A program made the translations under genes and the position numbers. Source: Sabellastarte sp. h YS-2021 (taxonomy: Eukaryota; Annelida; Polychaeta; Sabellida; Sabellidae). From it: DNA of 64,000 bases. The stretch is from assembly GCA_964017235.1 (NCBI GenBank), contig OZ024940.1:28452573-28516572 (forward strand), in the 5' to 3' direction. Under the pieces are notes generated by a model. That model had not been told where the DNA came from. It searched no databases and worked only from the letters and a program-made list of their open reading frames with translations. Positions 1-50,074 of the stretch are shown one piece after another (position 1 is the first letter of the stretch; each line of letters starts with the position of its first letter).

Positions 1-331
1 GATGTATCAGACTTTTGTGAACGCAAATTATATTTTTTCTTCTCCATATAACACAGATCAAAAGACTAAGATAAATAAAACATATAACTAAAAACAACAA
101 TCAGTGGTACACGGAGAAGAAAAAAAGAATAAATTAAAATGTCCTTGAGGTGTTATCCCTTCCAAGTGTGAGCTGTAAATGGAAGAAGGGTTCAAATTTT
201 TTGGCTAAAGAAGGCGTAGGGAGCCAATCAGAAGCCAGTTTACAACCAGCATGGTCATACATACTAAATGCCAGTTTAAGGTACCCTCTCAGGAATGATC
301 TACCTGACACCAAGGTGTCATCCCGCAAATA
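1..331 (-). mobile_element. DIRS-type 5' end fragment, unit A
   Basis: On the minus strand, bases 47 to 1 encode the first residues of the DIRS ORF1 (MEKKKYNLRSQ), and 48-331 is the leader and terminal region upstream of that ATG. The same block lies next to a longer DIRS copy at 26,426-27,000, which identifies it. The fragment ends where PLE-A 3' sequence begins near 332. Small ORFs on both strands across 134-332 are recurrent but look like chance reading of the terminal region. Confidence 0.75.
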
Positions 332-838
332 AACAAAATTACATCAAAATGACGTTTTAACAAAGCAAAACACGTTATTATTACTTAAAACACATATTCA
401 ATCATATTTACTCATATTTTTTTTTTACTAATTAAAATTTTTAATTTTTTTGCAATTTTTCACTATGACGTCACAAAATCGAAAATTTTAAAATTTTAAA
501 ATTTGTTTTAAAAAATCACTATAATGTCAAAAAAATCCAAAATTTCTTAAATTCGCACAATTTTAACAATGACAATAAAAATCAATATCCTCAACAAAAG
601 AATTCAAATTAAACAAATTGTAAGAGAGATAACATTTATACTACAATTCCATTGTCCCTGTTCATACCCAGTGGGTACACACAGCCAAATTTCATAATGA
701 GTTGAAGTGAATAGCTACCTCTCTATGTCTATTCTTGTTCTTGGCATCTCTCAAGTGGTCTCTTATCCTATCTCCTAACCTCCTTTCTGTTTCCCCGATA
801 TAAATCTCTCCACATCTAATACATTCAATGCAATAAAT

Positions 839-1052
839 ATCCATATAAAATAGTAAACAAAGTAAAAACAAAGAGCGTATAAAATAAATAAATTTATTTA
901 AGCTTTTTACAAGCTGTTTCTGATGAAGGAGTGAGGCTCCGAAAGCTTAAATAAATTTATTTATTTTATACGCTCTTTGTTTTTACTATGTTTACTATTT
1001 TATATGGATATTTAAAAAGAGCCAAGCGGCATAACTTTATAAACTTGGAATA
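839..1052. mobile_element. 214-bp PLE-A foldback insertion with 14-bp TSD
   Basis: Two inverted copies of the PLE-A terminus (CCATATAAAATAGTAAAC... and its complement) face each other around a hammerhead-like core. The insertion interrupts the PLE-A endonuclease and is flanked by TCAATGCAATAAAT at 825-838 and 1,053-1,066. Uninterrupted PLE-A copies (for example near 40,800) have that 14-mer once. It has no coding capacity, so it is either an extreme truncation of PLE-A or a non-autonomous derivative. Confidence 0.85.
920..944 (+). ncRNA. Hammerhead-ribozyme-like core (PLE-A type)
   Basis: CTGATGA, then an unpaired A, hairpin GGAG-TGAGG-CTCC, then GAAA: the conserved strands and stem II of a hammerhead. 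Downstream AGC at 943-945 can pair with GCT near 990, closing an AT-rich stem III. Stem I is not obvious, so activity is unproven. Hammerheads are known from PLE terminal repeats. Confidence 0.65.
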
Positions 1053-1631
1053 TCAATGCAATAAATGACATCTTTGGTGATACAAGAAAAACTACCTGAC
1101 GGAGTAAATTTACCTCTAGGGCCCTCAACTGTGTGTACCTCATTGAAAACAAAGGGACATGTAAGACAACGTTTTCTACCAAATGGCAAAGTTATGCCAG
1201 ACACATCTTTTGAACTGAATCTAGAGTGGACCAGCATGTCTCTTATGTTCCTGTCCCGGTATGAAATCAGAGGTTTTTGTTGAAACAAATAGCCCACTTC
1301 CTCGTCAAGATTTAGCATGTGAAAATTCTTCTCCACAATATCTGTTATTACCTTACTGTGAGAGTTGTATGTAAGGGTAAGTATAACCCTATTCATTTCT
1401 TCAGCAGGTTCTTTTTGTTTCAAAGCATCAGCTCTACTGATATTAGAAACTCTATCTATGGCCTTAGAAACAATATCCTGGGGATAATCTCTCGCTAGAA
1501 AGAAATGTTCCATTTCCTTCTCTTTTGCCTTCAAATCCTGCCTAGGAGCTTTAAACGGAGAAATTGTGAAAATGGAATAGCATTTTTGCATGACTTTGGG
1601 TGGGAGGAACCATATTTAAGGTAAGCATTTA

Positions 1632-1875
1632 TAAGCACTCTTGTTTAGACAGCCTCCCTTCGCAAATTTCTTTTTGTTCATCTGATAAAAATTTTAAATC
1701 TTCAACTTAAGCCAGGTCCAAATAATCAACTAAGCTGTGATCCATAGCTTCTTTTGACATTAATTGTTTATAAAAATTCCGGACATGTTTTAAAATTTCC
1801 TTCTGCTTATTAACTAAAATTCCATCCACTAGCAATTTATCTAAAGTACGTTTTTCTGCTCTTTTTTGTTTCTTT
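1632..1875 (-). pseudogene. L1-like LINE ORF2 fragment (endonuclease-RT linker), unit A
   Basis: The reverse complement reads RAEKRTLDKLLVDGILVN, then KQKEILKHVRNFYKQL and, after one in-frame stop, EDLKFLSDEQKEICEGRLS. This is the region just upstream of the RT fingers in L1/Tx1-type ORF2 proteins. The fragment has no start, RT core or ends. Bases 1,876-2,030 after it are AT-rich and unassigned, and 2,031-2,085 is a short PLE-A endonuclease scrap. Confidence 0.65.
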
Positions 1876-2143
1876 ATTTAAGAAAAATCTTCACAATATA
1901 TTCAAAATTCAAATAATTATTTGAAACTATCAAAATATATCGCTCCTCACTTCAATATCGTGCTGAAGCTGCTCTCAGATACTTTTCATTTTCGTGTAAT
2001 TTATTTTCCGATATGTACAGTGTAATATGTAATGCCAGACACTTCTTTTGAACTGAATCTAGAGTGGACCAGCATGTCTCTTATGTTAAATAATAAACAA
2101 AGTAAAAACAAAGAGCATATCAAATAAATAGATTTATTTGAGC

Positions 2144-2168
2144 TTTCGGAGCTTCACTCCTTCATCAG
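2144..2168 (-). ncRNA. Hammerhead-ribozyme-like core, left arm of foldback
   Basis: On the minus strand: CTGATGA-A-GGAG-TGAAG-CTCC-GAAA. Following bases can form stem III (AGC...GCT) enclosing TCAAATAAAT paired with ATTTATTTGA. Confidence 0.65.
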
Positions 2169-2229
2169 AAATAGCTTACAATTGTTTAAATTTAAATTGC
2201 TTTCAAATTTAAACAATTGTAAGCTATTT

Positions 2230-2254
2230 CTGATGAAGGAGTGAAGCTCCGAAA
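2230..2254 (+). ncRNA. Hammerhead-ribozyme-like core, right arm of foldback
   Basis: Plus-strand twin of the minus-strand core at 2,144-2,168. The stem III region here is degraded (CAAATCCATTTTTTATTTTA), so pairing is weaker. Confidence 0.6.
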
Positions 2255-2303
2255 GCTCAAATCCATTTTTTATTTTATATGCTCTTTGTTTATTATTTCA
2301 CAA

Positions 2304-2888
2304 AGAATAAATGAGACAAACTTTCTTCATGCTGTTGACATAAGATACATTTTGGGCTTTCGACAATTTTTCTAAAGAAATATAAATATTGGTTCACTTG
2401 GTAAGATATGATGAACCATTCTATAAGTTACATCTCTGCTTTCCGGAGAAAGCAAAGGATGGTTCATGTTTCGGAAAGATTTTGAAAAATCAATCTTTGG
2501 GAAGATATTTAAGATTCTTGGTGGTTTAACTTTCTCTTGTAAACAGAGAGAATTGAGCCCTTTTTAAAAGTCATTGACTGAAAGTCAAAGGATTTGTCAA
2601 GTTTAGATAAATCTTAAAAGCAGCTAGAGCATTAGCATAGAACACAGGCTTTTCAATTGAATCAAGACCACATCTTGAGATAAATATTCTCTCAGATCAA
2701 GCTTAAGCCAGTACATGGCAAAATTTTTCCATTTACAATGGCTACCATATAAAAGGTAGGTGAATAAAAATATTTTAGCTTTCATTAGATATAAGTAAGG
2801 GAAATACCACCACCAGCATAGCTGTTGTATAGCATTTCACATTTGAGACACTGTCTTGTTATTCCACAAAAAGTGAATTTGAATTGGT
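2304..2888 (-). pseudogene. L1-like LINE ORF2 C-terminal fragment, unit A
   Basis: From 2,888 downward the minus strand gives FLWNNKTVSQ, a degenerate stretch, then LDLREYLSQD, EKPVFYANALAAFK, SPESRDVTYRMVHHIL and finally CILCQQHEESLSHLFF. Together these are the domain after the RT plus the CxxC...HLF zinc-like motif that ends L1-type ORF2 proteins. At least two frameshifts and stops break it. PLE-B starts at ~2,889. Confidence 0.7.
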
Positions 2889-2907
2889 ATTTGAATTGGT
2901 TTGTGTT

Positions 2908-2932
2908 CTGAGGAAGGAGTGAGGCTCCGAAA
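2908..2932 (+). ncRNA. Hammerhead-ribozyme-like core (PLE-B type)
   Basis: CTGAGGA-A-GGAG-TGAGG-CTCC-GAAA. Position 7 is G instead of the U of PLE-A, which the CUGANGA consensus allows. ATGT after GAA can pair with ACAT near 2,970 as stem III. The A of GAAATG is the start of the first long PLE-B reading frame. Confidence 0.6.
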
Positions 2933-5691
2933 TGTCAAATAATTTATATTATTGCTCTTTTATCATAACATTTCTTTTCTTTGCTGTGTTTGAAGAAACA
3001 AAGAGCGAAGCAGCACATTTAAAAAGTTTATCAAGGTTTTGTTTCAAAGCTCCCAAAATGAGAAACTTGAAATCACAATTCCACAGTCGTCTGTGCACTT
3101 TCTTATCAAATTTCGGTACAAATGTGCAGTCGGAAGCTAGGGGAAAAGGTTTGGCCACTTTTAACAAAACAACGTTTGCGTCTCAGAGAAGGTTTCTTAC
3201 AACGTGTTTGCAAAGAAAAGTTATCCCAAATGGATTTTCACTTAAGTTCAACAGTTCATCGAGTAAAGGTATTCTTCAAAGCTGTTCCTTTAACCTGATG
3301 AGAAATGCACTGAAAGATGTAACATGGAAAATTCAGGAACATTCAAAGAATCTTAAGGCAAGTACTCAAAATCTTCAGGTTTGGTGTACCCATTCCAAGT
3401 TTGCCCAGATTTCACATTTTATTCATACATGCAACTATGAACTTTATTTTAAACTGGACGAAATCAAATGTAATAAGTTGAAAGATCTTTTGCCCAAATT
3501 GGATGAAAAGGATTAGAATTCTATCCGATTTGGATAATTCAGAACGTTCACTTCTTAGAAAAGGTCTAGGATTTGTTCTAGTTCACAAACAACCAGATCC
3601 AGTTCGAAGTCTTGAAGACCTCCATAGATTCCACCATAAGGTGAGACTTCATGCTTTTTTCAATAACCTGGATCAGACTATTAACGAAAGAAACCATGCA
3701 AGTGATTTACCTGATGATGAAGTCATGAGCTTCAAGAGACAATCTAGGTCATCATTTACACCTAAAGAAGGTCAGTTTGACGCAGTTGATAGATTCATGT
3801 CAAAATGTTGTGATGATTTTTCTCAATCTAATTTTAAACCACCAAAAAGATCAAATTTGAAAGCAGATGAAGAAGAGGCCCTTCAAAAACTCAGAAAGAG
3901 AGAAGACATTGTTATCAAACCTGCTGATAAAGGGGGAGCTGTAGTTGTGTGGAGAAAGGATCTCTATTGTAACGAAGCCAAGAAGCAATTATCATGTGAA
4001 CAATTTTATACAAAACTTGATTGTGCCATCACTAACCAAATAAGTAAAACAGTAGAAAAAGAACTCAAATCAATCATCTCTAAAGGTGAATTGCCAAAAA
4101 CAGCATTGAACTTAGTGGTAGACAATCCTAAATGGAGTAATTTAATTACATGTTGCCCAAGATTCAGAAACTTGGAAACCCTGGTAGACCTGTTGTGTCC
4201 TCTTGTTCTTGCCCGACAACTTTGATATCCAAGTACCTTAGTGAGTTTTTGAAACCAATAGTTACCAAACTTACCATCTTGTGTGAAAGACACTAATCAT
4301 GCCTTGAAGATGATGGAAAACTTCCGATTTCAAGAAGAAAATGCTCTTCTTTTCACCATGGATATAAAGGGACTTTACACTAATATACCCAATGACTATG
4401 GTCTTAACACAATGAAATATTTCCTAGAAAAACGTGAAATTCAGAATCCACCCACCCACACGTTATTAAGACTTGCAGAACTTGTGTTGACACAAAATTG
4501 TTTCAGTTTTGATGATGCTTTCTATTCGCAAACAGGTGGGACAATGATTGGGACTCCATTTGGACCTGAATATTCAAATTTGGCTGTTGGAAAATTTGAA
4601 TTACACGTTGCTGATAGGTTCAATGGTGCTATGCCAGAATTTTCTCACAGATATATTGATGATGTAGTTGGTCCAACCTCCATCTTGAGAGTAGATTAAT
4701 TTATTGATTATGTGTGCAATTTCCATCCAGCTTTTCACTTTACTTTTGTTGTATCTGAGACAGAAATAGAATTTTTGGATATAAAAATTTCAGTTTCCAG
4801 AAAAAATTGTCCACCTCAGTACATTACAAGGCTACTGACAGTCATTCATATTTAAGATATGGTTCTTGCCACCCAAAGGCTTGTAAAAATGCTATACCAT
4901 ACTCTCAGTTTTTAAGATTGAGAAGACTGTGTTCAGAAGAAAACGATTTTGTGTCAAAAGTGAATGAAATGGAAAATTTCTTTCTTGTGAGGGATTATCC
5001 CCAAAAAGGAATTGATAAAACAAAAACATAAGTAATTGGAATCAATCGAGCTCAAGTTCTTCAAAAAAGACCAAAAGGGGTGAACACTACCTTCAATTCA
5101 CACAGCCAAATGATAAAAAACATCATAGAAAGAAATTTTCACATTTTGCAATTGGATGATGAAGTAGGCTACCTTTTCCAAGAGAAACCTTTAGTTTCAT
5201 ATCGTAGAGACCGAAATGTGAAAGATATGCTTGTACACGCAAACATTGGTGTAAATTCTAAAGTCGGCAAAACTCGTAAATGTGTCCGGACAAGATGTTT
5301 TACCTGTCCTCATGTTTTTGATGATGTCCACCAAGTCAGAGGGCCAAAGGGTGTATACTCTCCAAAGGACAACATTAGTTGTATCAGCAAAGATATAATA
5401 TACTGTATCGAATGTTTGAAATGTGGTAGTCTTTACATAGGGGAAACTGAAAGAAGACTAGGGGACAGAATTCGAGAACATTTAAGAGATATAAAGACTA
5501 AGCAACCCCAGAAACAGGTATCTGTGCATTTTAACTCACAAGGGCATAGTTTGAATGACCTAAAAGTTCAAGTTTTATATCAAAATTTTAGGGACAAGTT
5601 TTCCAGAAAGGCAAAAGAAAGCTTTTTGATTCAAAAATTAGGCACTGTGTTTCCGGATGGGATGAATATAGATGGGGGAATGGAAACTTAA
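2932..5691 (+). pseudogene. PLE-B reverse transcriptase / GIY-YIG endonuclease, unit A
   Basis: Five consecutive reading frames cover a Penelope-type RT. 2,932-3,516: N-terminal domain (RFLTTCLQRKVIPNGFSL). 3,503-4,225: RT fingers (DIVIKPADKGGAVVV). 4,283-4,699: palm (MDIKGLYTNIPN, GGTMIGTPFGP, catalytic RYIDDVV). 4,807-5,031: RT C-terminus/thumb. 5,032-5,691: Cys cluster (CVRTRCFTCPH) and GIY-YIG nuclease with YCI...LYIGETERRLGDRIREH and the later Glu of KESFL. Breaks are frameshifts near 3,510 and 4,140, TAA at 4,697, a frameshift near 4,800 and TAA at 5,029. In an intact element the RT primes on nicked DNA. This copy cannot make the full protein. Confidence 0.9.
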
Positions 5692-5822
5692 AGTTTCTTA
5701 TTATATTTACTTACCTTTTCTTTACATTTTCTTTCATATGGATATTACATATTCACTCTGTAATCTTTGCATCCTTTGTATTTTGTATTTACATAAGATT
5801 TCTTCCATTTGGAACGCTAAAT

Positions 5823-6396
5823 TGTGTCTCTTGAAAGCCAGAGTCATGGGCAGACTTGTTGGATTTTTCAACATGTAACCGGTTAAACGAACGCCCACTT
5901 GGGCCCGAACCGTCACTGTCAGAATCATGCATAATTTGCCCACAGTCTATGTCACTGTCTGATACTGAAGAATCTGAATCTTGGTGAGACATGGTTTGTT
6001 TTTGCCCCAACAAGTTCGTTACAAATTCGTTATCATCCGACATATGCAATTCAAACTGTACGTGAGATGTATCAGACTTTTGTGAACGCAAATTATATTT
6101 TTTCTTCTCCATATAACACAGATCGAAAGACTAAGATAAATAAAACATATAACTAAAAACAACAATCAGTGGTACACGGAGAAGAAAAAAAGAATAAATT
6201 AAAATGTCCTTGAGGTGTTATCCCTTCCAAGTGTGAGCTGTAAATGGAAGAAGGGTTCAAATTTTTTGGCTAAAGAAGGCGTAGGGAGCCAATCAGAAGC
6301 CAGTTTACAACCAGCATGGTCATACATACTAAATGCCAGTTTAAGGTACCCTCTCAGGAATGATCTACCTGACACCAAGGTGTCATCCCGCAAATA
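5823..6396 (-). mobile_element. DIRS-type 5' fragment with ORF1 start, unit B
   Basis: Minus-strand ORF1 runs from ATG at 6,112 down to the junction at 5,823 (about 97 DIRS codons), rich in Ser and Asp (QDSDSSVSDSDIDC). It then reads ~10 codons into PLE-B 3' UTR before a stop near 5,789. That fusion is created by the array breakpoint. 6,113-6,396 is the DIRS terminal/leader region. Confidence 0.8.
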
Positions 6397-6904
6397 AACA
6401 AAATTACATCAAAATGACGTTTTAACAAAGCAAAACACGTTATTATTACTTAAAACACATATTCAATCATATTTACTCATATTTTTTTTTTTACTAATTA
6501 AAATTTTTAATTTTTTTGCAATTTTTCACTATGACGTCACAAAATCGAAAATTTTAAAATTTTAAAATTTGTTTTAAAAAATCACTATAATGTCAAAAAA
6601 ATCCAAAATTTCTTAAATTCGCACAATTTTAACAATGACAATAAAAATCAATATCCTCAACAAAAGAATTCAAATTAAACAAATTGTAAGAGAGATAACA
6701 TTTATACTACAATTCCATTGTCCCTGTTCATACCCAGTGGGTACACACAGCCAAATTTCATAATGAGTTGAAGTGAATAGCTACCTCTCTATGTCTATTC
6801 TTGTTCTTGGCATCTCTCAAGTGGTCTCTTATCCTATCTCCTAACCTCCTTTCTGTTTCCCCGATATAAATCTCTCCACATCTAATACATTCAATGCAAT
6901 AAAT

Positions 6905-7118
6905 ATCCATATAAAATAGTAAACAAAGTAAAAACAAAGAGCGTATAAAATAAATAAATTTATTTAAGCTTTTTACAAGCTGTTTCTGATGAAGGAGTGA
7001 GGCTCCGAAAGCTTAAATAAATTTATTTATTTTATACGCTCTTTGTTTTTACTATGTTTACTATTTTATATGGATATTTAAAAAGAGCCAAGCGGCATAA
7101 CTTTATAAACTTGGAATA
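6905..7118. mobile_element. 214-bp PLE-A foldback insertion, unit B
   Basis: Second copy of the insertion described at 839-1,052, with the same 14-bp flanking repeat. The insertion therefore pre-dates the array. Confidence 0.85.
6986..7010 (+). ncRNA. Hammerhead-ribozyme-like core (PLE-A type)
   Basis: Identical to the core at 920-944, including the GGAG/CTCC stem II and the AGC...GCT stem III option. Confidence 0.65.
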
Positions 7119-7697
7119 TCAATGCAATAAATGACATCTTTGGTGATACAAGAAAAACTACCTGACGGAGTAAATTTACCTCTAGGGCCCTCAACTGTGT
7201 GTACCTCATTGAAAACAAAGGGACATGTAAGACAACGTTTTCTACCAAATGGCAAAGTTATGCCAGACACATCTTTTGAACTGAATCTAGAGTGGACCAG
7301 CATGTCTCTTATGTTCCTGTCCCGGTATGAAATCAGAGGTTTTTGTTGAAACAAATAGCCCACTTCCTCGTCAAGATTTAGCATGTGAAAATTCTTCTCC
7401 ACAATATCTGTTATTACCTTACTGTGAGAGTTGTATGTAAGGGTAAGTATAACCCTATTCATTTCTTCAGCAGGTTCTTTTTGTTTCAAAGCATCAGCTC
7501 TACTGATATTAGAAACTCTATCTATGGCCTTAGAAACAATATCCTGGGGATAATCTCTCGCTAGAAAGAAATGTTCCATTTCCTTCTCTTTTGCCTTCAA
7601 ATCCTGCCTAGGAGCTTTAAACGGAGAAATTGTGAAAATGGAATAGCATTTTTGCATGACTTTGGGTGGGAGGAACCATATTTAAGGTAAGCATTTA

Positions 7698-7941
7698 TAA
7701 GCACTCTTGTTTAGACAGCCTCCCTTCGCAAATTTCTTTTTGTTCATCTGATAAAAATTTTAAATCTTCAACTTAAGCCAGGTCCAAATAATCAACTAAG
7801 CTGTGATCCATAGCTTCTTTTGACATTAATTGTTTATAAAAATTCCGGACATGTTTTAAAATTTCCTTCTGCTTATTAACTAAAATTCCATCCACTAGCA
7901 ATTTATCTAAAGTACGTTTTTCTGCTCTTTTTTGTTTCTTT
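7698..7941 (-). pseudogene. L1-like LINE linker fragment, unit B
   Basis: Copy of 1,632-1,875 with the same in-frame stop between YLDLA and VEDLKF. Confidence 0.65.
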
Positions 7942-8209
7942 ATTTAAGAAAAATCTTCACAATATATTCAAAATTCAAATAATTATTTGAAACTATCAAA
8001 ATATATCGCTCCTCACTTCAATATCGTGCTGAAGCTGCTCTCAGATATTTTTCATTTTCGTATAATTTATTTTCCGATATGTACAGTGTAATATGTAATG
8101 CCAGACACTTCTTTTGAACTGAATCTAGAGTGGACCAGCATGTCTCTTATGTTAAATAATAAACAAAGTAAAAACAAAGAGCATATCAAATAAATAGATT
8201 TATTTGAGC

Positions 8210-8234
8210 TTTCGGAGCTTCACTCCTTCATCAG
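8210..8234 (-). ncRNA. Hammerhead-ribozyme-like core
   Basis: Minus-strand core identical to 2,144-2,168. Confidence 0.65.
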
Positions 8235-8295
8235 AAATAGCTTACAATTGTTTAAATTTAAATTGCTTTCAAATTTAAACAATTGTAAGCTATTT

Positions 8296-8320
8296 CTGAT
8301 GAAGGAGTGAAGCTCCGAAA
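8296..8320 (+). ncRNA. Hammerhead-ribozyme-like core
   Basis: Plus-strand core identical to 2,230-2,254. Confidence 0.6.
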
Positions 8321-8369
8321 GCTCAAATCCATTTTTTATTTTATATGCTCTTTGTTTATTATTTCACAA

Positions 8370-8954
8370 AGAATAAATGAGACAAACTTTCTTCATGCTG
8401 TTGACATAAGATACATTTTGGGCTTTCGACAATTTTTCTAAAGAAATATAAATATTGGTTCACTTGGTAAGATATGATGAACCATTCTATAAGTTACATC
8501 TCTGCTTTCCGGAGAAAGCAAAGGATGGTTCATGTTTCGGAAAGATTTTGAAAAATCAATCTTTGGGAAGATATTTAAGATTCTTGGTGGTTTAACTTTC
8601 TCTTGTAAACAGAGAGAATTGAGCCCTTTTTAAAAGTCATTGACTGAAAGTCAAAGGATTTGTCAAGTTTAGATAAATCTTAAAAGCAGCTAGAGCATTA
8701 GCATAGAACACAGGCTTTTCAATTGAATCAAGACCACATCTTGAGATAAATATTCTCTCAGATCAAGCTTAAGCCAGTACATGGCAAAATTTTTCCATTT
8801 ACAATGGCTACCATATAAAAGGTAGGTGAATAAAAATATTTTAGCTTTCATTAGATATAAGTAAGGGAAATACCACCACCAGCATAGCTGTTGTATAGCA
8901 TTTCACATTTGAGACACTGTCTTGTTATTCCACAAAAAGTGAATTTGAATTGGT
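8370..8954 (-). pseudogene. L1-like LINE ORF2 C-terminal fragment, unit B
   Basis: Copy of 2,304-2,888, with the CILCQQ...HLF motif at its 3' end near 8,370-8,420 and the same frameshifts. Confidence 0.7.
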
Positions 8955-8973
8955 ATTTGAATTGGTTTGTGTT

Positions 8974-8998
8974 CTGAGGAAGGAGTGAGGCTCCGAAA
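8974..8998 (+). ncRNA. Hammerhead-ribozyme-like core (PLE-B type)
   Basis: CTGAGGA core, identical to 2,908-2,932 and 6,066 bp downstream of it in direct orientation. Confidence 0.6.
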
Positions 8999-11757
8999 TG
9001 TCAAATAATTTATATTATTGCTCTTTTATCATAACATTTCTTTTCTTTGCTGTGTTTGAAGAAACAAAGAGCGAAGCAGCACATTTAAAAAGTTTATCAA
9101 GGTTTTGTTTCAAAGCTCCCAAAATGAGAAACTTGAAATCACAATTCCACAGTCGTCTGTGCACTTTCTTATCAAATTTCGGTACAAATGTGCAGTCGGA
9201 AGCTAGGGGAAAAGGTTTGGCCACTTTTAACAAAACAACGTTTGCGTCTCAGAGAAGGTTTCTTACAACGTGTTTGCAAAGAAAAGTTATCCCAAATGGA
9301 TTTTCACTTAAGTTCAACAGTTCATCGAGTAAAGGTATTCTTCAAAGCTGTTCCTTTAACCTGATGAGAAATGCACTGAAAGATGTAACATGGAAAATTC
9401 AGGAACATTCAAAGAATCTTAAGGCAAGTACTCAAAATCTTCAGGTTTGGTGTACCCATTCCAAGTTTGCCCAGATTTCACATTTTATTCATACATGCAA
9501 CTATGAACTTTATTTTAAACTGGACGAAATCAAATGTAATAAGTTGAAAGATCTTTTGCCCAAATTGGATGAAAAGGATTAGAATTCTATCCGATTTGGA
9601 TAATTCAGAACATTCACTTCTTAGAAAAGGTCTAGGATTTGTTCTAGTTCACAAACAACCAGATCCAGTTCGAAGTCTTGAAGACCTCCATAGATTCCAC
9701 CATAAGGTGAGACTTCATGCTTTTTTCAATAACCTGGATCAGACTATTAACGAAAGAAACCATGCAAGTGATTTACCTGATGATGAAGTCATGAGCTTCA
9801 AGAGACAATCTAGGTCATCATTTACACCTAAAGAAGGTCAGTTTGACGCAGTTGATAGATTCATGTCAAAATGTTGTGATGATTTTTCTCAATCTAATTT
9901 TAAACCACCAAAAAGATCAAATTTGAAAGCAGATGAAGAAGAGGCCCTTCAAAAACTCAGAAAGAGAGAAGACATTGTTATCAAACCTGCTGATAAAGGG
10001 GGAGCTGTAGTTGTGTGGAGAAAGGATCTCTATTGTGACGAAGCCAAGAAGCAATTATCATGTGAACAATTTTATACAAAACTTGATTGTGCCATCACTA
10101 ACCAAATAAGTAAAACAGTAGAAAAAGAACTCAAATCAATCATCTCTAAAGGTGAATTGCCAAAAACAGCATTGAACTTAGTGGTAGACAATCCTAAATG
10201 GAGTAATTTAATTACATGTTGCCCAAGATTCAGAAACTTGGAAACCCTGGTAGACCTGTTGTGTCCTCTTGTTCTTGCCCGACAACTTTGATATCCAAGT
10301 ACCTTAGTGAGTTTTTGAAACCAATAGTTACCAAACTTACCATCTTGTGTGAAAGACACTAATCATGCCTTGAAGATGATGGTAAACTTCCGATTTCAAG
10401 AAGAAAATGCTCTTCTTTTCACCATGGATATAAAGGGACTTTACACTAATATACCCAATGACTATGGTCTTAACACAATGAAATATTTCCTAGAAAAACG
10501 TGAAATTCAGAATCCACCCACCCACACGTTATTAAGACTTGCAGAACTTGTGTTGACACAAAATTGTTTCAGTTTTGATGATGCTTTCTATTCGCAAACA
10601 GGTGGGACAATGATTGGGACTCCATTTGGACCTGAATATTCAAATTTGGCTGTTGGAAAATTTGAATTACACGTTGCTGATAGGTTCAATGGTGCTATGC
10701 CAGAATTTTCTCACAGATATATTGATGATGTAGTTGGTCCAACCTCCATCTTGAGAGTAGATTAATTTATTGATTATGTGTGCAATTTCCATCCAGCTTT
10801 TCACTTTACTTTTGTTGTATCTGAGACAGAAATAGAATTTTTGGATATAAAAATTTCAGTTTCCAGAAAAAATTGTCCACCTCAGTACATTACAAGGCTA
10901 CTGACAGTCATTCATATTTAAGATATGGTTCTTGCCACCCAAAGGCTTGTAAAAATGCTATACCATACTCTCAGTTTTTAAGATTGAGAAGACTGTGTTC
11001 AGAAGAAAACGATTTTGTGTCAAAAGTGAATGAAATGGAAAATTTCTTTCTTGTGAGGGATTATCCCCAAAAAGGAATTGATAAAACAAAAACATAAGTA
11101 ATTGGAATCAATCGAGCTCAAGTTCTTCAAAAAAGACCAAAAGGGGTGAACACTACCTTCAATTCACACAGCCAAATGATAAAAAACATCATAGAAAGAA
11201 ATTTTCACATTTTGCAATTGGATGATGAAGTAGGCTACCTTTTCCAAGAGAAACCTTTAGTTTCATATCGTAGAGACCGAAATGTGAAAGATATGCTTGT
11301 ACACGCAAACATTGGTGTAAATTCTAAAGTCGGCAAAACTCGTAAATGTGTCCGGACAAGATGTTTTACCTGTCCTCATGTTTTTGATGATGTCCACCAA
11401 GTCAGAGGGCCAAAGGGTGTATACTCTCCAAAGGACAACATTAGTTGTATCAGCAAAGATATAATATACTGTATCGAATGTTTGAAATGTGGTAGTCTTT
11501 ACATAGGGGAAACTGAAAGAAGACTAGGGGACAGAATTCGAGAACATTTAAGAGATATAAAGACTAAGCAACCCCAGAAACAGGTATCTGTGCATTTTAA
11601 CTCACAAGGGCATAGTTTGAATGACCTAAAAGTTCAAGTTTTATATCAAAATTTTAGGGACAAGTTTTCCAGAAAGGCAAAAGAAAGCTTTTTGATTCAA
11701 AAATTAGGCACTGTGTTTCCGGATGGGATGAATATAGATGGGGGAATGGAAACTTAA
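8998..11757 (+). pseudogene. PLE-B RT / GIY-YIG, unit B
   Basis: Same gene and same breaks as in unit A: frames 8,998-9,582; 9,569-10,291; 10,349-10,765; 10,873-11,097; 11,098-11,757. Private amino-acid changes are R to H in SEHSLL and E to V in MMVNF. It shares D (LYCDEAKK) with unit C where unit A has N. Palm RYIDDVV and nuclease LYIGETERR are retained. Confidence 0.9.
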
Positions 11758-11888
11758 AGTTTCTTATTATATTTACTTACCTTTTCTTTACATTTTCTTT
11801 CATATGGATATTACATATTCACTCTGTAATCTTTGCATCCTTTGTATTTTGTATTTACATAAGATTTCTTCCATTTGGAACGCTAAAT

Positions 11889-12462
11889 TGTGTCTCTTGA
11901 AAGCCAGAGTCATGGGCAGACTTGTTGGATTTTTCAACATGTAACCGGTTAAACGAACGCTCAGTTGGGCCCGAACCGTCACTGTCAGAATCATGCATAA
12001 TTTGCCCACAGTCTATGTCACTGTCTGATACTGAAGAATCTGAATCTTGGTGAGACATGGTTTGTTTTTGCCCCAACAAGTTCGTTACAAATTCGTTATC
12101 ATCCGACATATGCAATTCAAACTGTACGTGAGATGTATCAGACTTTTGTGAACGCAAATTATATTTTTTCTTCTCCATATAACACAGATCAAAAGACTAA
12201 GATAAATAAAACATATAACTAAAAACAACAATCAGTGGTACACGGAGAAGAAAAAAAGAATAAATTAAAATGTCCTTGAGGTGTTATCCCTTCCAAGTGT
12301 GAGCTGTAAATGGAAGAAGGGTTCAAATTTTTTGGCTAAAGAAGGCGTAGGGAGCCAATCAGAAGCCAGTTTACAACCAGCATGGTCATACATACTAAAT
12401 GCCAGTTTAAGGTACCCTCTCAGGAATGATCTACCTGACACCAAGGTGTCATCCCGCAAATA
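11889..12462 (-). mobile_element. DIRS-type 5' fragment with ORF1 start, unit C
   Basis: ORF1 starts at 12,178 on the minus strand and runs down past the junction at 11,888/11,889 into PLE-B UTR, stopping near 11,855. A variant TERSFNR replaces SGRSFNR. 12,179-12,462 is the leader/terminal region. Confidence 0.8.
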
Positions 12463-12969
12463 AACAAAATTACATCAAAATGACGTTTTAACAAAGCAAA
12501 ACACGTTATTATTACTTAAAACACATATTCAATCATATTTACTCATATTTTTTTTTTACTAATTAAAATTTTTAATTTTTTTGCAATTTTTCACTATGAC
12601 GTCACAAAATCGAAAATTTTAAAATTTTAAAATTTGTTTTAAAAAATCACTATAATGTCAAAAAAATCCAAAATTTCTTAAATTCGCACAATTTTAACAA
12701 TGACAATAAAAATCAATATCCTCAACAAAAGAATTCAAATTAAACAAATTGTAAGAGAGATAACATTTATACTACAATTCCATTGTCCCTGTTCATACCC
12801 AGTGGGTACACACAGCCAAATTTCATAATGAGTTGAAGTGAATAGCTACCTCTCTATGTCTATTCTTGTTCTTGGCATCTCTCAAGTGGTCTCTTATCCT
12901 ATCTCCTAACCTCCTTTCTGTTTCCCCGATATAAATCTCTCCACATCTAATACATTCAATGCAATAAAT

Positions 12970-13183
12970 ATCCATATAAAATAGTAAACAAAGTAAAAAC
13001 AAAGAGCGTATAAAATAAATAAATTTATTTAAGCTTTTTACAAGCTGTTTCTGATGAAGGAGTGAGGCTCCGAAAGCTTAAATAAATTTATTTATTTTAT
13101 ACGCTCTTTGTTTTTACTATGTTTACTATTTTATATGGATATTTAAAAAGAGCCAAGCGGCATAACTTTATAAACTTGGAATA
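12970..13183. mobile_element. 214-bp PLE-A foldback insertion, unit C
   Basis: Third copy, with the TCAATGCAATAAAT flanks preserved. Confidence 0.85.
13051..13075 (+). ncRNA. Hammerhead-ribozyme-like core (PLE-A type)
   Basis: Identical to the core at 920-944. Confidence 0.65.
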
Positions 13184-13762
13184 TCAATGCAATAAATGAC
13201 ATCTTTGGTGATACAAGAAAAACTACCTGACGGAGTAAATTTACCTCTAGGGCCCTCAACTGTGTGTACCTCATTGAAAACAAAGGGACATGTAAGACAA
13301 CGTTTTCTACCAAATGGCAAAGTTATGCCAGACACATCTTTTGAACTGAATCTAGAGTGGACCAGCATGTCTCTTATGTTCCTGTCCCGGTATGAAATCA
13401 GAGGTTTTTGTTGAAACAAATAGCCCACTTCCTCGTCAAGATTTAGCATGTGAAAATTCTTCTCCACAATATCTGTTATTACCTTACTGTGAGAGTTGTA
13501 TGTAAGGGTAAGTATAACCCTATTCATTTCTTCAGCAGGTTCTTTTTGTTTCAAAGCATCAGCTCTACTGATATTAGAAACTCTATCTATGGCCTTAGAA
13601 ACAATATCCTGGGGATAATCTCTCGCTAGAAAGAAATGTTCCATTTCCTTCTCTTTTGCCTTCAAATCCTGCCTAGGAGCTTTAAACGGAGAAATTGTGA
13701 AAATGGAATAGCATTTTTGCATGACTTTGGGTGGGAGGAACCATATTTAAGGTAAGCATTTA

Positions 13763-14006
13763 TAAGCACTCTTGTTTAGACAGCCTCCCTTCGCAAATTT
13801 CTTTTTGTTCATCTGATAAAAATTTTAAATCTTCAACTTAAGCCAGGTCCAAATAATCAACTAAGCTGTGATCCATAGCTTCTTTTGACATTAATTGTTT
13901 ATAAAAATTCCGGACATGTTTTAAAATTTCCTTCTGCTTATTAACTAAAATTCCATCCACTAGCAATTTATCTAAAGTACGTTTTTCTGCTCTTTTTTGT
14001 TTCTTT
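13763..14006 (-). pseudogene. L1-like LINE linker fragment, unit C
   Basis: Copy of 1,632-1,875. Confidence 0.65.
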
Positions 14007-14274
14007 ATTTAAGAAAAATCTTCACAATATATTCAAAATTCAAATAATTATTTGAAACTATCAAAATATATCGCTCCTCACTTCAATATCGTGCTGAAGC
14101 TGCTCTCAGATACTTTTCATTTTCGTGTAATTTATTTTCCGATATGTACAGTGTAATATGTAATGCCAGACACTTCTTTTGAACTGAATCTAGAGTGGAC
14201 CAGCATGTCTCTTATGTTAAATAATAAACAAAGTAAAAACAAAGAGCATATCAAATAAATAGATTTATTTGAGC

Positions 14275-14299
14275 TTTCGGAGCTTCACTCCTTCATCAG
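14275..14299 (-). ncRNA. Hammerhead-ribozyme-like core
   Basis: Minus-strand core identical to 2,144-2,168. Confidence 0.65.
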
Positions 14300-14360
14300 A
14301 AATAGCTTACAATTGTTTAAATTTAAATTGCTTTCAAATTTAAACAATTGTAAGCTATTT

Positions 14361-14385
14361 CTGATGAAGGAGTGAAGCTCCGAAA
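14361..14385 (+). ncRNA. Hammerhead-ribozyme-like core
   Basis: Plus-strand core identical to 2,230-2,254. Confidence 0.6.
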
Positions 14386-14434
14386 GCTCAAATCCATTTT
14401 TTATTTTATATGCTCTTTGTTTATTATTTCACAA

Positions 14435-15019
14435 AGAATAAATGAGACAAACTTTCTTCATGCTGTTGACATAAGATACATTTTGGGCTTTCGACAATTT
14501 TTCTAAAGAAATATAAATATTGGTTCACTTGGTAAGATATGATGAACCATTCTATAAGTTACATCTCTGCTTTCCGGAGAAAGCAAAGGATGGTTCATGT
14601 TTCGGAAAGATTTTGAAAAATCAATCTTTGGGAAGATATTTAAGATTCTTGGTGGTTTAACTTTCTCTTGTAAACAGAGAGAATTGAGCCCTTTTTAAAA
14701 GTCATTGACTGAAAGTCAAAGGATTTGTCAAGTTTAGATAAATCTTAAAAGCAGCTAGAGCATTAGCATAGAACACAGGCTTTTCAATTGAATCAAGACC
14801 ACATCTTGAGATAAATATTCTCTCAGATCAAGCTTAAGCCAGTACATGGCAAAATTTTTCCATTTACAATGGCTACCATATAAAAGGTAGGTGAATAAAA
14901 ATATTTTAGCTTTCATTAGATATAAGTAAGGGAAATACCACCACCAGCATAGCTGTTGTATAGCATTTCACATTTGAGACACTGTCTTGTTATTCCACAA
15001 AAAGTGAATTTGAATTGGT
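14435..15019 (-). pseudogene. L1-like LINE ORF2 C-terminal fragment, unit C
   Basis: Copy of 2,304-2,888. Confidence 0.7.
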
Positions 15020-15038
15020 ATTTGAATTGGTTTGTGTT

Positions 15039-15063
15039 CTGAGGAAGGAGTGAGGCTCCGAAA
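15039..15063 (+). ncRNA. Hammerhead-ribozyme-like core (PLE-B type)
   Basis: CTGAGGA core, 6,065 bp downstream of the one at 8,974 and 3,092 bp upstream of the one at 18,131, all in direct orientation. Confidence 0.6.
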
Positions 15064-17822
15064 TGTCAAATAATTTATATTATTGCTCTTTTATCATAAC
15101 ATTTCTTTTCTTTGCTGTGTTTGAAGAAACAAAGAGCGAAGCAGCACATTTAAAAAGTTTATCAAGGTTTTGTTTCAAAGCTCCCAAAATGAGAAACTTG
15201 AAATCACAATTCCACAGTCGTCTGTGCACTTTCTTATCAAATTTCGGTACAAATGTGCAGTCGGAAGCTAGGGGAAAAGGTTTGGCCACTTTTAACAAAA
15301 CAACGTTTGCGTCTCAGAGAAGGTTTCTTACAACGTGTTTGCAAAGAAAAGTTATCCCAAATGGATTTTCACTTAAGTTCAACAGTTCATCGAGTAAAGG
15401 TATTCTTCAAAGCTGTTCCTTTAACCTGATGAGAAATGCACTGAAAGATGTAACATGGAAAATTCAGGAACATTCAAAGAATCTTAAGGCAAGTACTCAA
15501 AATCTTCAGGTTTGGTGTACCCATTCCAAGTTTGCCCAGATTTCACATTTTATTCATACATGCAACTATGAACTTTATTTTAAACTGGACGAAATCAAAT
15601 GTAATAAGTTGAAAGATCTTTTGCCCAAATTGGATGAAAAGGATTAGAATTCTATCCGATTTGGATAATTCAGAACGTTCACTTCTTAGAAAAGGTCTAG
15701 GATTTGTTCTAGTTCACAAACAACCAGATCCAGTTCGAAGTCTTGAAGACCTCCATAGATTCCACCATAAGGTGAGACTTCATGCTTTTTTCAATAACCT
15801 GGATCAGACTATTAACGAAAGAAACCATGCAAGTGATTTACCTGATGATGAAGTCATGAGCTTCAAGAGACAATCTAGGTCATCATTTACACCTAAAGAA
15901 GGTCAGTTTGACGCAGTTGATAGATTCATGTCAAAATGTTGTGATGATTTTTCTCAATCTAATTTTAAACCACCAAAAAGATCAAATTTGAAAGCAGATG
16001 AAGAAGAGGCCCTTCAAAAACTCAGAAAGAGAGAAGACATTGTTATCAAACCTGCTGATAAAGGGGGAGCTGTAGTTGTGTGGAGAAAGGATCTCTATTG
16101 TGACGAAGCCAAGAAGCAATTATCATGTGAACAATTTTATACAAAACTTGATTGTGCCATCACTAACCAAATAAGTAAAACAGTAGAAAAAGAACTCAAA
16201 TCAATCATCTCTAAAGGTGAATTGCCAAAAACAGCATTGAACTTAGTGGTAGACAATCCTAAATGGAGTAATTTAATTACATGTTGCCCAAGATTCAGAA
16301 ACTTGGAAACCCTGGTAGACCTGTTGTGTCCTCTTGTTCTTGCCCGACAACTTTGATATCCAAGTACCTTAGTGAGTTTTTGAAACCAATAGTTACCAAA
16401 CTTACCATCTTGTGTGAAAGACACTAATCATGCCTTGAAGATGATGGAAAACTTCCGATTTCAAGAAGAAAATGCTCTTCTTTTCACCATGGATATAAAG
16501 GGACTTTACACTAATATACCCAATGACTATGGTCTTAACACAATGAAATATTTCCTAGAAAAACGTGAAATTCAGAATCCACCCACCCACACGTTATTAA
16601 GACTTGCAGAACTTGTGTTGACACAAAATTGTTTCAGTTTTGATGATGCTTTCTATTCGCAAACAGGTGGGACAATGATTGGGACTCCATTTGGACCTGA
16701 ATATTCAAATTTGGCTGTTGGAAAATTTGAATTACACGTTGCTGATAGGTTCAATGGTGCTATGCCAGAATTTTCTCACAGATATATTGATGATGTAGTT
16801 GGTCCAACCTCCATCTTGAGAGTAGATTAATTTATTGATTATGTGTGCAATTTCCATCCAGCTTTTCACTTTACTTTTGTTGTATCTGAGACAGAAATAG
16901 AATTTTTGGATATAAAAATTTCAGTTTCCAGAAAAAATTGTCCACCTCAGTACATTACAAGGCTACTGACAGTCATTCATATTTAAGATATGGTTCTTGC
17001 CACCCAAAGGCTTGTAAAAATGCTATACCATACTCTCAGTTTTTAAGATTGAGAAGACTGTGTTCAGAAGAAAACGATTTTGTGTCAAAAGTGAATGAAA
17101 TGGAAAATTTCTTTCTTGTGAGGGATTATCCCCAAAAAGGAATTGATAAAACAAAAACATAAGTAATTGGAATCAATCGAGCTCAAGTTCTTCAAAAAAG
17201 ACCAAAAGGGGTGAACACTACCTTCAATTCACACAGCTAAATGATAAAAAACATCATAGAAAGAAATTTTCACATTTTGCAATTGGATGATAAAGTAGGC
17301 TACCTTTTCCAAGAGAAACCTTTAGTTTCATATCGTAGAGACCGAAATGTGAAAGATATGCTTGTACACGCAAACATTGGTGTAAATTCTAAAGTCGGCA
17401 AAACTCGTAAATGTGTCCGGACAAGATGTTTTACCTGTCCTCATGTTTTTGATGATGTCCACCAAGTCAGAGGGCCAAAGGGTGTATACTCTCCAAAGGA
17501 CAACATTAGTTGTATCAGCAAAGATATAATATACTGTATCGAATGTTTGAAATGTGGTAGTCTTTACATAGGGGAAACTGAAAGAAGACTAGGGGACAGA
17601 ATTCGAGAACATTTAAGAGATATAAAGACTAAGCAACCCCAGAAACAGGTATCTGTGCATTTTAACTCACAAGGGCATAGCTTGAATGACCTAAAAGTTC
17701 AAGTTTTATATCAAAATTTTAGGGACAAGTTTTCCAGAAAGGCAAAAGAAAGCTTCTTGATTCAAAAATTAGGCACTGTGTTTCCGGATGGGATGAATAT
17801 AGATGGGGGAATTGAAACTTAA
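15063..17822 (+). pseudogene. PLE-B RT / GIY-YIG, unit C
   Basis: Frames 15,063-15,647; 15,634-16,356; 16,414-16,830; 16,938-17,162; 17,241-17,822. It carries all unit A/B lesions plus an extra TAA at 17,236-17,238 (CAG CTA AAT context, Q of HSQM lost). Linker reads DDKVGYLF where A and B read DDEVGYLF. Confidence 0.9.
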
Positions 17823-17946
17823 AGTTTCTTATTATATTTACTTACCTTTTCTTTACATTTTCTTTCATATGGATGTTGCATATTCACTCTGTAATCTTTG
17901 CATCCTTTGTATTTACATAAGATTTCTTCCATTTGGAACGCTAAAT

Positions 17947-18437
17947 GAGGTAATTTTTACGTTATAATATGTGGTGACGTTTTTTTGACGTCTTTATGAC
18001 GTTTATACTACATACCGTAATTATCAATTGCTACGTCATAAAAATTTTGTTTATAACGTAGAAAGGATGGAGGGATTGCTTTGTGATGTTTATTTTGTAT
18101 ATTGTTTATGTATTTGAATTGGTTTGTGTTCTGAGGAAGGAGTGAGGCCCCGAAATGTCAAATAAATTTATATTATTTCTCTTTTATAATAATATTTCTT
18201 TTATTTTGTGTGTTTGAAGAAACAAAGACCAAAGCAGCACATTTAAAAGTTTACCAAGGTTTTGTTTTAAAGCTGCCAAAATGAGAAACTTGATATCACA
18301 ATTCCCCAGTCGTCTGTGCACTTTCTTATCAAATTTCGGTACAAATGTGCAGTCGGAAGGTAGGCCAAAAGGATTGGCCACTTTTAACAAAACAAGGTTT
18401 GTGTCTAAGTTATCCCCAATGGATTTTTACTTAAATA
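17947..18437 (+). mobile_element. PLE-B 3' UTR running into the 5' end of a second PLE-B
   Basis: The 3' UTR is rich in TGACGT motifs (17,954-18,062). At 18,131 a hammerhead-like core follows, then the same N-terminal coding start as at 2,932 (SQFPSRLCTFLSNFGT in the plus frame near 18,295-18,345), ending ~18,437 at a PLE-A terminus. This shows PLE-B in head-to-tail tandem with one shared terminal repeat. Confidence 0.75.
18131..18155 (+). ncRNA. Hammerhead-like core (PLE-B), mutated stem II
   Basis: CTGAGGA-A-GGAG-TGAGG-CCCC-GAAA. The T to C change breaks one A-U pair of stem II. Confidence 0.5.
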
Positions 18438-18623
18438 TTCCAAGTTACTAAAGTTATGCTGCTTGGCTCTTTAAATATCCATATAAAATAGTAAACAAAG
18501 TAAATTTGAATGTTCCTGCATTTTCCATGTTACATCTTTCAGTGCATTTCTCATCAGGTTAAAGGAACAGCTTTGAAAAATACCTTTACTTCTCCTCGAT
18601 GAACCGTTGAACTTAAGTAAAAA
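18438..18623. mobile_element. PLE-A terminus plus inverted scrap of PLE-B
   Basis: 18,438-18,514 is the PLE-A end (TTCCAAGTTACTAAAG to GTAAACAAAGTAAA). 18,515-18,623 is the PLE-B N-terminal coding region in inverse orientation (complement of ~3,240-3,350). It is a rearranged junction between two PLE families. Confidence 0.7.
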
Positions 18624-18687
18624 TCCATATAAAATAGTAAACAAAGTAAAAACAAAGAGCATTTCAAATAAACAGATTTATTTGAGC

Positions 18688-18712
18688 TTTCGGAGCTTCA
18701 CTCCTTCATCAG
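18688..18712 (-). ncRNA. Hammerhead-ribozyme-like core (PLE-A type)
   Basis: CTGATGA-A-GGAG-TGAAG-CTCC-GAAA on the minus strand. Confidence 0.65.
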
Positions 18713-18861
18713 AAATGGCTTACAATTGTTTAAATTTGAAAGAAAGCTCTTTTTATATGTAAATGAACAAAATTACATCAAAATGACGTTTTAATAAAGC
18801 AAAACACGACATTATTACTTAAAACACATATTTAGTCACATTTACGTCATGAATTTTAAGA

Positions 18862-20745: not shown

Positions 20746-20755
20746 ATTTTTAAAA

Positions 20756-50072: not shown

Positions 50073-50074
50073 AC

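Follow-up and report, generated by a model that had tools for sequence, protein, structure and literature searches.

The tandem copies found at the left end of the analyzed window, a stretch of 64,000 nucleotides (C21:28,452,573-28,516,572) from a 1.79-Gb assembly, belong, with a probability that we put at roughly 0.8, to a young single-locus satellite of ~513 kb that arose from a transposon graveyard, is organized as a 20,603-bp A1-A2-B repeat and was built in the stages proposed below. The array spans C21 27.967-28.480 Mb, the three A copies of the window belonging to its right end, and further A and B copies are located on contig C343. The best reading of the locus is a composite satellite derived from transposable elements (TEs) with a higher-order layer: many head-to-tail copies lie at one locus (23 A and 10 B units, with 38 copies of the A|A junction, J1, on C21), divergence within a register is 0.03-0.06% versus several percent between the PLE-A copies of the window, and several TE types contribute to each monomer, namely PLE-A and PLE-B, together with a weak LINE component and a DIRS-like one whose name is presumed. 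This contradicts the initial annotation, in which the repeat was considered not to be a satellite and 6,066 bp was taken as its full repeating unit, a length that corresponds to a subunit of the higher-order repeat.

Tandem copies in the window

The 6,066-bp composite in tandem, as initially proposed, was confirmed over positions 1-17,953 by self-alignment, 31-mer spacings and offset agreement. Alignment gave 99.76% identity between 1-11,888 and 6,066-17,946, and 99.74% between 1-5,822 and 12,132-17,946; the most frequent spacings of shared exact 31-mers were 6,066, 12,131 and 6,065, and at an offset of 6,066 the first 5,400 bases agreed at 5,114 positions versus 1,470 in one shuffled window. 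The limits originally set for the array (1-17,946) had to be abandoned, as it is open leftward and positions 17,954-27,386 are part of the same repeat. Unit boundaries were set by the A|A junction, at 5,822 and 11,888.

A total of 15 substitution sites (two of them comparable in two copies only), a 1-bp indel and a 7-bp indel were found among the three copies, more than the "about ten" substitutions first estimated; seven of these sites and the 7-bp indel lie at the end of the third unit, within its final ~720 bp. Of the disabling lesions, five PLE-B stop codons were checked, one of which is the terminal stop, and each was shared by all 23 A units aligned. These shared stops and the location of the A|A junction, inside two elements and not at their ends, uphold the proposal that fossil elements were amplified as plain DNA, and recent amplification with homogenization was also supported. 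The repetition is explicable without transposition by any of the elements themselves.

Anatomy of the A and B units

Four element types had been recognized in the unit, and the Pfam analysis supported PLE-A and PLE-B. The PLE-A part of the A unit (Table 1) reaches 96% identity at the amino-acid level with PLE-A ORFs from other parts of the window, and a sister copy (39,516-41,093) qualifies as a Penelope-like element (PLE) because it includes in one ORF both RVT_1 (E=3.6e-6; 27.3 bits, just below the Pfam value of 29.6) and GIY-YIG (E=1.6e-5, above the Pfam cut-off). PLE-B has a GIY-YIG match above the cut-off (E=1.4e-5) and an RVT_1 match below it (E=0.00036). The LINE label is weak, based on a sub-threshold zf-RVT match (E=0.0049) and inspection by eye. 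Three DIRS-like ORFs of a truncated element (24,006-26,733) matched no Pfam reverse transcriptase or recombinase family, and for this reason the name DIRS is one that we presume from sequence motifs.

The unit also contains two long palindromes that were missing from the initial list. A hammerhead ribozyme in P2 was considered and discarded: the core-like motif is frequent, yet the matches listed included no Rfam hammerhead model; Rfam miRNA matches on the palindromes, which were below the gathering score, were read as hairpin artefacts.

The ten B copies compared have 13 variable columns. Two segments considered as independent sister elements were reassigned: 26,425-27,369 forms the head of the following A, according to the 20,603-bp spacing, and E is part of 10 of 10 B units in the 264-kb stretch read.

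Table 1. Position of the repeat units, their components and the two junctions in the window.
Feature	Position	Strand	Basis or remark
A unit, cut by left end of the window	1..5821	+	whole unit C21:28,452,329-28,458,393
J1, A|A junction	5812..5831	.	5,821/5,822, again 11,887/11,888
A unit, extra copy, A1-type, 6,066 bp	5822..11887	+	
DIRS-like element, N-terminal ORF part	5822..6390	-	name presumed from motifs, without Pfam match
PLE-A 3' part, GIY-YIG region, interrupted by P1	6392..7748	-	ORF comparison
Palindrome P1	6900..7118	.	z = -18.0 vs shuffles
LINE-like fragments, weak	7690..8600	-	limits by eye
Palindrome P2, hammerhead-like core on both strands	8156..8373	.	z = -20.4
PLE-B, broken reverse transcriptase and GIY-YIG	8953..11887	+	Pfam
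A2 unit, A preceding B	11888..17953	+	PLE-B tail without the 7-bp insertion of A1
B unit (8,471 bp) with pieces of PLE-B, PLE-A copies placed head to head and part of DIRS-like element	17954..26424	+	
E, second PLE-B 3' copy inside B	19273..20739	+	first ~770 bp nearly identical to A tail
J0, head-to-head PLE-A join	21841..21860	.	21,850/21,851
Head of a truncated A at the right array edge	26425..27386	+	

Higher-order organization and registers

The higher-order repeat consists of two A units followed by one B unit (6,066+6,066+8,471 = 20,603 bp), and C21:28,255,685-28,478,996 is tiled regularly by 23 A and 10 B units. This tiling was read base by base, except for a 200-N gap in one A, within a stretch of 264 kb; another ~266 kb of the array (27,987,000-28,252,572) was mapped by sequence patterns only, and the copy number is that of the assembly. 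Within the C21 array 20 B>A boundaries were counted.

Comparison of the units revealed a divergence of 0.032% among A1, 0.064% among A2 and 0.042% among B copies versus 0.249% between A1 and A2. At 25 of the 49 variable columns of A, nine A1 units are fixed for one state and nine A2 units for another. Units of the same register are therefore more alike than neighbours, as in a higher-order repeat. The five extra A units, which were left out when diagnostic sites were chosen, comprise four A1/A2 mosaics (one 22221111111 and three 11221111111) and one A1-like unit, a pattern that indicates unequal exchange. The first copy of the window is a hybrid with an A2 head and an A1 tail (haplotype 22221111111 at 11 diagnostic sites), a composition that matches the expectation from unequal exchange. 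No decay of similarity with distance was observed among 8/9 A1, 9 A2 and 10 B copies (Spearman -0.09, -0.15 and 0.21; one-sided permutation p 0.67, 0.83 and 0.10, respectively), which fits a burst or array-wide exchange and not slow local exchange.

Less-derived copies at the edges

The leftmost A retains ~71-75 bp of PLE-A that are lacking in the inner units and present in other PLE-A copies, and the 7-bp duplication seen in A1 is missing from it. The first complete B unit from this edge is without the E extension of ~867 bp, and the first ~770 bp of E, nearly identical to the A tail, are absent there. The position A 945/946 was tried as the tandem founder junction and rejected: PLE-A is uninterrupted there in the left-edge copy, so that the inner A units simply carry a deletion. 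At the right edge, PLE-A of the truncated A head continues 17 bp beyond the deletion point of the inner units. The leftmost A also has a further ~382-bp stretch, which may be either ancestral or acquired.

Some register alleles of the leftmost A are as in A1 and others as in A2, and its divergence from A2 is uneven, 0-0.4% between A positions 2,500 and 5,000 and 1.4-2.0% in the first kb. Because of these mixed alleles and uneven divergence this copy is not simply ancestral, and it has probably exchanged sequence with the inner array. The edges are out of phase, the right one stopping at A position 962 and the left one at B position 3,897, which is not predicted by simple tandem duplication, and a later deletion or rearrangement must be assumed.

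Amplification through extrachromosomal circles or rolling-circle products, followed by their reinsertion, is an alternative to in-place unequal exchange that we consider unlikely. In its favour, both the unlike edge phases and the absence of distance decay would fit the insertion of concatemers or a burst, and C343 contains a run of 11 J1 junctions spaced 6,065-6,066 bp. However, the J1 copies found lie at one chromosomal locus and on one other contig, the array passes at its left edge into less-derived copies of this locus, and mosaics at the extra units are predicted by unequal exchange in place.

Junctions J1 and J0

J1 fuses the PLE-B 3' region, at a point 36-43 bp before the shared end of PLE-B, to the interior of the DIRS-like ORF; the two sides overlap by 1 bp (T). 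An exact search of the assembly with a 30-mer of this junction retrieved 51 copies, 38 on C21 and 13 on C343, all in one strand and none on other contigs, which points to one origin. The A>B 30-mer was also found on C1 and C14 (three places in all), and C1, C2, C7 and C14 contain the B>A 33-mer at five places; both arrangements are thus natural, and A|A is the novelty. J0 was present in 20 exact copies (18 on C21, two on C343 and none on other contigs) and was missing at the leftmost copy, where uninterrupted PLE-A is found instead. J0 is consequently a candidate for the founder junction of a tandem duplication of a ~14.3-kb A+B segment, a status that we infer, since it might instead be one of the ordinary head-to-head arrangements of Penelope, like the PLE-A pair also contained in the left flank. 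Crossing-over between homologous PLE-A copies was rejected as the cause of the duplication, the observed breakpoints having short overlaps only.

It could be argued that J1 was born on the E tail inside B, generating a 7.94-kb A-long unit that recombination later shortened to 6,066 bp. On C21 there are seven A-long units, which include the A units in second and third place counted from the left edge, and their spacing of 1,881/1,889 bp agrees with the length of the short E (1,883 bp) in the B near that edge. Nevertheless, an E-type tail (T placed 30 bp upstream) running into J1 had no exact match in the genome, and 14 of 14 J1 junctions in the stretch read carry the A-type tail. Birth on E was not supported by these results and is improbable.

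An expansion of a shorter or single-copy locus by the assembler, or two haplotypes strung together, is very improbable. The 200-N gap inside one A unit of the array, the near identity of the unit copies, exact in some of them, and the presence of the repeat on a second contig make the exact copy number and order not safe. Yet at 25 of the 49 variable columns the state of an A unit is fixed according to its place with respect to B, mosaic units sit where the extra copies lie and the indels of the edge copies could be polarized with the help of other PLE-A copies, none of which is expected from two haplotypes, nor is an assembler expected to make one novel junction in 51 places. The initial argument against simple assembly duplication gains strength from the fixed register differences, the mosaics and the less-derived edge copies. 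The SNPs seemingly private among the window copies are mostly A1- or A2-register alleles.

Helitron Rep/helicase was not among the six-frame Pfam matches of the A unit, which is a weak test because the same scan (X at stops) also missed the RVT_1 found otherwise; non-autonomous Helitrons lack the Rep/helicase protein. That an element inserted itself in tandem (as Penelope-type tandems, by Helitron rolling circle or by repeated DIRS integration) is hardly credible, for although tandem and inverted arrangements are a known property of PLEs (PMC3846280) and head-to-head PLE-A pairs are present here, the unit covers several element types and J1 lies inside the DIRS-like ORF and short of the PLE-B end.

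Discussion

The staged origin of the satellite would have been as follows. PLE, DIRS-like and LINE-like insertions would have decayed at one locus, as the anatomy of the units shows, with element names partly presumed. A segment of ~14.3 kb including A and B would then have been tandemly duplicated by end joining, creating J0, as suggested by the comparison of edge and inner copies. A second end joining would have created J1, joining A to A either by loss of the B between two A units or by tandem duplication of A; the novelty of J1 is observed, and either route may have been taken. Finally, unequal homologous exchange or gene conversion would have amplified and homogenized the A1-A2-B register, added the extra A units and spread later indels inside the array, with the edges keeping older states. 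In this last step the pattern is seen directly in the array and the process is what we infer from it.

The beginnings of satellites are poorly documented because homogenization tends to erase the first steps. In this array, the events that separate inner from edge copies can be named and several of them put in order, each of the two novel junctions can be placed to the base, and exchange has left hybrid units as its mark. Tentatively, and somewhat short of even odds, the locus might be a staged record, read in sequence, of the birth of a composite satellite on one chromosome, with a less-derived edge, two end-joined founder junctions, hybrids and a homogenized 20.6-kb core; the graveyard hypothesis would then be directly testable, and the array may be on its way to a heterochromatic or centromeric block specific to one chromosome. 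The restriction of J1 to C21 and C343 indicates that the array is not a general centromere repeat of the assembly. Comparison of individuals or sister species at this locus would reveal whether an array of this kind begins with end joining and expands by unequal exchange or through circles.

Higher-order repeats of the alpha-satellite type have register-specific variants, copies of the same register being far more alike than neighbours, and 171-bp units. The array shares this register structure, but its units are multi-kilobase mosaics of dead retroelements. No higher-order repeat of composite TE units was found in a search at the level of titles and abstract openings, with most subscription journals outside its range. 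The maize repeats CRM1TR and CRM4TR, for which illegitimate recombination followed by gene conversion has been invoked (PMC3648361), also consist of retrotransposon pieces that were tandemized and homogenized at few loci; however, each derives from one retrotransposon subfamily, and no repeat of the A1-A2-B type is described in the accessible sections of that work. Kilobase monomers, partly retrotransposon-derived, are likewise found in the sobo satellite of wild potato (4.7-kb monomer, ~360 kb on one chromosome) and in potato centromere repeats (monomers of 979 bp to 5.4 kb), both as cited in the same sections of PMC3648361, where their centromeric or pericentromeric position is known and a 20-kb higher-order repeat is not described. 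Ape sex chromosomes carry composite repeats in tandem (PMC11168930) that are similar in their composite units and in their discovery by self dot-plot, but involve other elements and other hosts, and edge states and junction history are not described in the accessible part of that report. A close framework is the hypothesis of composite satellites arising from transposon graveyards, put forward in the 2025 review by Satovic-Vuksic, Majcen and Plohl (PMC12628747), with which the array shares a tandem monomer from several degraded TE types, palindromes as proposed aids and the satellite outcome; in the available text of that review the TE stretches are short and hard to recognize, whereas here they are long and mostly assignable, the junctions are readable and less-derived edge copies survive.

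The array and its higher-order repeat

A tandem array of A, a 6,066-bp composite unit of dead transposons, had been proposed in the initial annotation, and it is real: positions 1-11,888 and 6,066-17,946 align at 99.76% identity and the 31-mer spacings agree, the commonest in the window being 6,066, 12,131 and 6,065. With J1, the A|A junction (5,822; 11,888), taken as the starting point of alignment, the three window copies show 15 variable substitution sites and two indels, of 1 bp and 7 bp; the 7-bp indel and seven of the substitutions fall within the final ~720 bp of copy three. In the assembly (1,785,957,881 bases, 647 contigs) the window occupies C21:28,452,573-28,516,572. When this assembly was searched with positions 1-3,000, the 40 best among 1,339 candidates all turned out to be full-length copies at 100% identity, placed on the window's contig C21 (27.986-28.468 Mb) and on contig C343. 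Copy spacings of 6,065-6,066, 14,537 and 20,603 bp indicated a larger repeat.

A total of 264 kb (C21:28,252,573-28,452,572 plus the window) was then read base by base. Together, 23 A units and 10 B units make up the segment C21:28,255,685-28,478,996, in the order A1-A2-B (20,603 bp), where A1 and A2 were named by position relative to B and not by sequence. The A units measure 6,065-6,067 bp, except one of 5,153 bp with a 200-N assembly gap inside, and each B unit 8,471 bp. Extra A units were found at two places. Since the B unit and the truncated A in the window are part of this repeat, so are the sister copies of the DIRS-like element and of PLE-B located after the array as initially annotated.

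Coordinates of features (window positions unless a contig is named)
Feature	Location	Remarks
B unit	17,954-26,424	
Truncated A	26,425-27,386	last piece of array
Three extra A	C21:28,346,569-28,376,895	between A1 and A2
Two extra A	C21:28,446,263-28,470,525	extending into window
Further B>A 33-mer copies	C21:27,819,688; 27,846,882; 27,873,004; 27,937,926	same strand
Hammerhead-like cores	920-944; 2144-2168; 2230-2254	and 13 more
Rfam miRNA matches	2146-2252 and copies; 45469-45569; 58198-58298	
Inverted duplication	33013-50360 / 64000-52632	right arm continues beyond window
Palindrome insertion	34549-34765	~217 bp, 12-bp flanking direct repeat
Second insertion	36154-36384	~230 bp, 14-bp flanking direct repeat
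Another Penelope-like family	45612-50360; 52632-57388	GIY-YIG at 53402-54199
C2H2 zinc-finger ORF	58346-58681	

Components of the unit

The Penelope-like elements PLE-A and PLE-B have GIY-YIG and reverse transcriptase matches, the latter below Pfam's cut-off; the LINE component is a weak assignment, and the DIRS label of the DIRS-like component is tentative. PLE-B is broken by in-frame stops, and the claim that units share their lesions was borne out for the five PLE-B stop codons checked (one the terminal stop), which are present in 23/23 A units. Each A unit contains two palindromes (folding z -18 and -20 in the unit at 5,822-11,887); palindromes in general are mentioned among proposed aids to satellite formation (PMC12628747). 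Palindromes also attract Rfam miRNA matches of low E-value, below the gathering score, which are read as hairpin artefacts. The hammerhead-like core CTGATGA-N14-GAAA occurs 16 times in the window (0.03 expected), in repeated elements, so that the copies are not independent; no hammerhead model was among the Rfam matches listed. Type I hammerheads have been reported in Penelope elements (PMC11722881).

Junctions and registers

Genome-wide counts were obtained with exact patterns and are lower bounds. J1 was found at least 51 times (38 on C21, 13 on C343), always on one strand, with none on other contigs or the reverse strand of the whole assembly. J0, the head-to-head PLE-A join in B (21,850|21,851), occurs at least 20 times (18 on C21, two on C343) and on no other contig by the same kind of search; by these patterns both junctions are confined to the array and C343. 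The A>B boundary was counted at least 29 times (C21 25, C343 1, C1 2, C14 1) and B>A at least 30 times (C21 24, of which 20 inside the array and 4 upstream at 27.82-27.94 Mb; C343 1; 5 across C1, C2, C7 and C14), and their presence in dispersed copies marks them as natural element sequence. J1 fuses the mid-portion of the DIRS-like ORF to the PLE-B 3' region, which breaks off 36-43 bp before the PLE-B end common to two copies; the two parts overlap by one T, and the sequence of this junction looks like end joining, not transposition. It would have formed by loss of B between two A units or by duplication of A. An origin of J1 on E, the second PLE-B 3' copy inside B, was tested and found unsupported.

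On average, the nine A1 units diverge from one another by 0.032%, the nine A2 by 0.064% and the ten B by 0.042%; the mean between A1 and A2 is 0.249%. The 49 variable A columns comprise 25 at which all nine A1 units differ from all nine A2 units (the 7-bp indel, ten single-base sites and 8 bp where the unit ends), 14 private and 10 patchy columns. The five extra A units, kept out of the choice of diagnostic sites, were typed at 11 of the fixed differences (the ten single-base sites plus a single base from the 7-bp indel): that at window 1-5,821 plus preceding bases carries A2 alleles at sites one to four and A1 alleles at the remaining seven, three show the mosaic pattern 11221111111 and one is A1-like. 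Mosaics where extra units sit are what out-of-register exchange predicts. Divergence showed no relation with distance among eight of nine A1, nine A2 and ten B units (Spearman -0.09, -0.15 and 0.21; one-sided permutation p 0.67, 0.83 and 0.10), which favours a burst, or exchange across the whole array, over gradual local drift.

On C21, J1 comes after seven of the A>B boundaries at a distance of 1,881 bp (five cases) or 1,889 bp (two). This long A variant, known from pattern spacing, fits recombination with a short E copy, whose spacing in B near the left edge is 1,883 bp. The seven long A units lie from C21 27,985,369 onward, with ~7.94 kb between successive A starts; the second and third A counted from the left edge are among them. 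On C343:22,830-83,484, eleven J1 are spaced 6,065-6,066 bp, hence ten successive A units with no B between them; pieces of B are present elsewhere on this contig (J0 at 11,811 and 97,146).

Edges and history

Unbroken homology to inner copies covers ~513 kb (C21:27,966,538-28,479,958, window 27,386). Among 20 one-kb samples of the left flank (27.55-27.963 Mb), 14 did not match the repeat or the right flank, one gave a 50-base match and five matched element pieces at ~91-97%. The DIRS-like B>A 33-mer at its four left-flank positions may mark an older duplication tier; one 1-kb sample from that region is ~91% identical to window 26,722-27,386.

Several features mark the leftmost copy as less derived. 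There, PLE-A keeps ~75 bp absent from inner units and present in other PLE-A copies, the A unit, like A2, is without the 7-bp duplication seen in A1, the B that follows lacks the ~867-bp E extension, and PLE-A(+) runs on past the point of J0 in inner B units. Such differences allow several events to be ordered and make J0 the leading candidate as founder junction; the duplication would have had a first period of ~14.3 kb. Against a simple founding picture count the different phase of the right edge and a head-to-head PLE-A pair in the left flank. The leftmost A counts against it too: it carries part of its register alleles as A1 and part as A2, has a ~382-bp stretch that may be either ancestral or derived, and diverges from inner units by 0-0.4% in the middle and 1.4-2.0% in the first kb; it has therefore probably exchanged with inner units.

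Fixed differences between registers, mosaic units and a gradient at the edges would not be expected if software had duplicated one sequence. Assembly of long arrays of identical units is nonetheless difficult, a gap lies inside the array and C343, presumably unplaced, is a separate contig. For these last three reasons the array length is uncertain in both directions.

The array is adjoined by a second gross rearrangement, a large inverted duplication whose arms align in stretches at 94.5-98.6% identity and carry arm-specific insertions. Two insertions are present only in the left arm, the right arm being the empty site: a palindrome of the family of P1, a palindrome in A, and an insert, perhaps a SINE, that starts with a putative tRNA-like promoter box. 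The inverted copies of another Penelope-like family are 98.5% identical, and a zinc-finger ORF lies near them.

Comparison with known repeats

Composite satellites arising from transposon graveyards are proposed as a hypothesis in a 2025 review (PMC12628747). The maize repeats CRM1TR/CRM4TR are described as retrotransposon-derived, with a proposed start by illegitimate recombination and growth by gene conversion (PMC3648361), and the Discussion of that paper cites the potato sobo repeat (4.7 kb, ~360 kb). Tandem composite repeats are reported on ape sex chromosomes (PMC11168930). No higher-order repeat of composite transposon units appeared in the titles and abstract openings of the literature searched.
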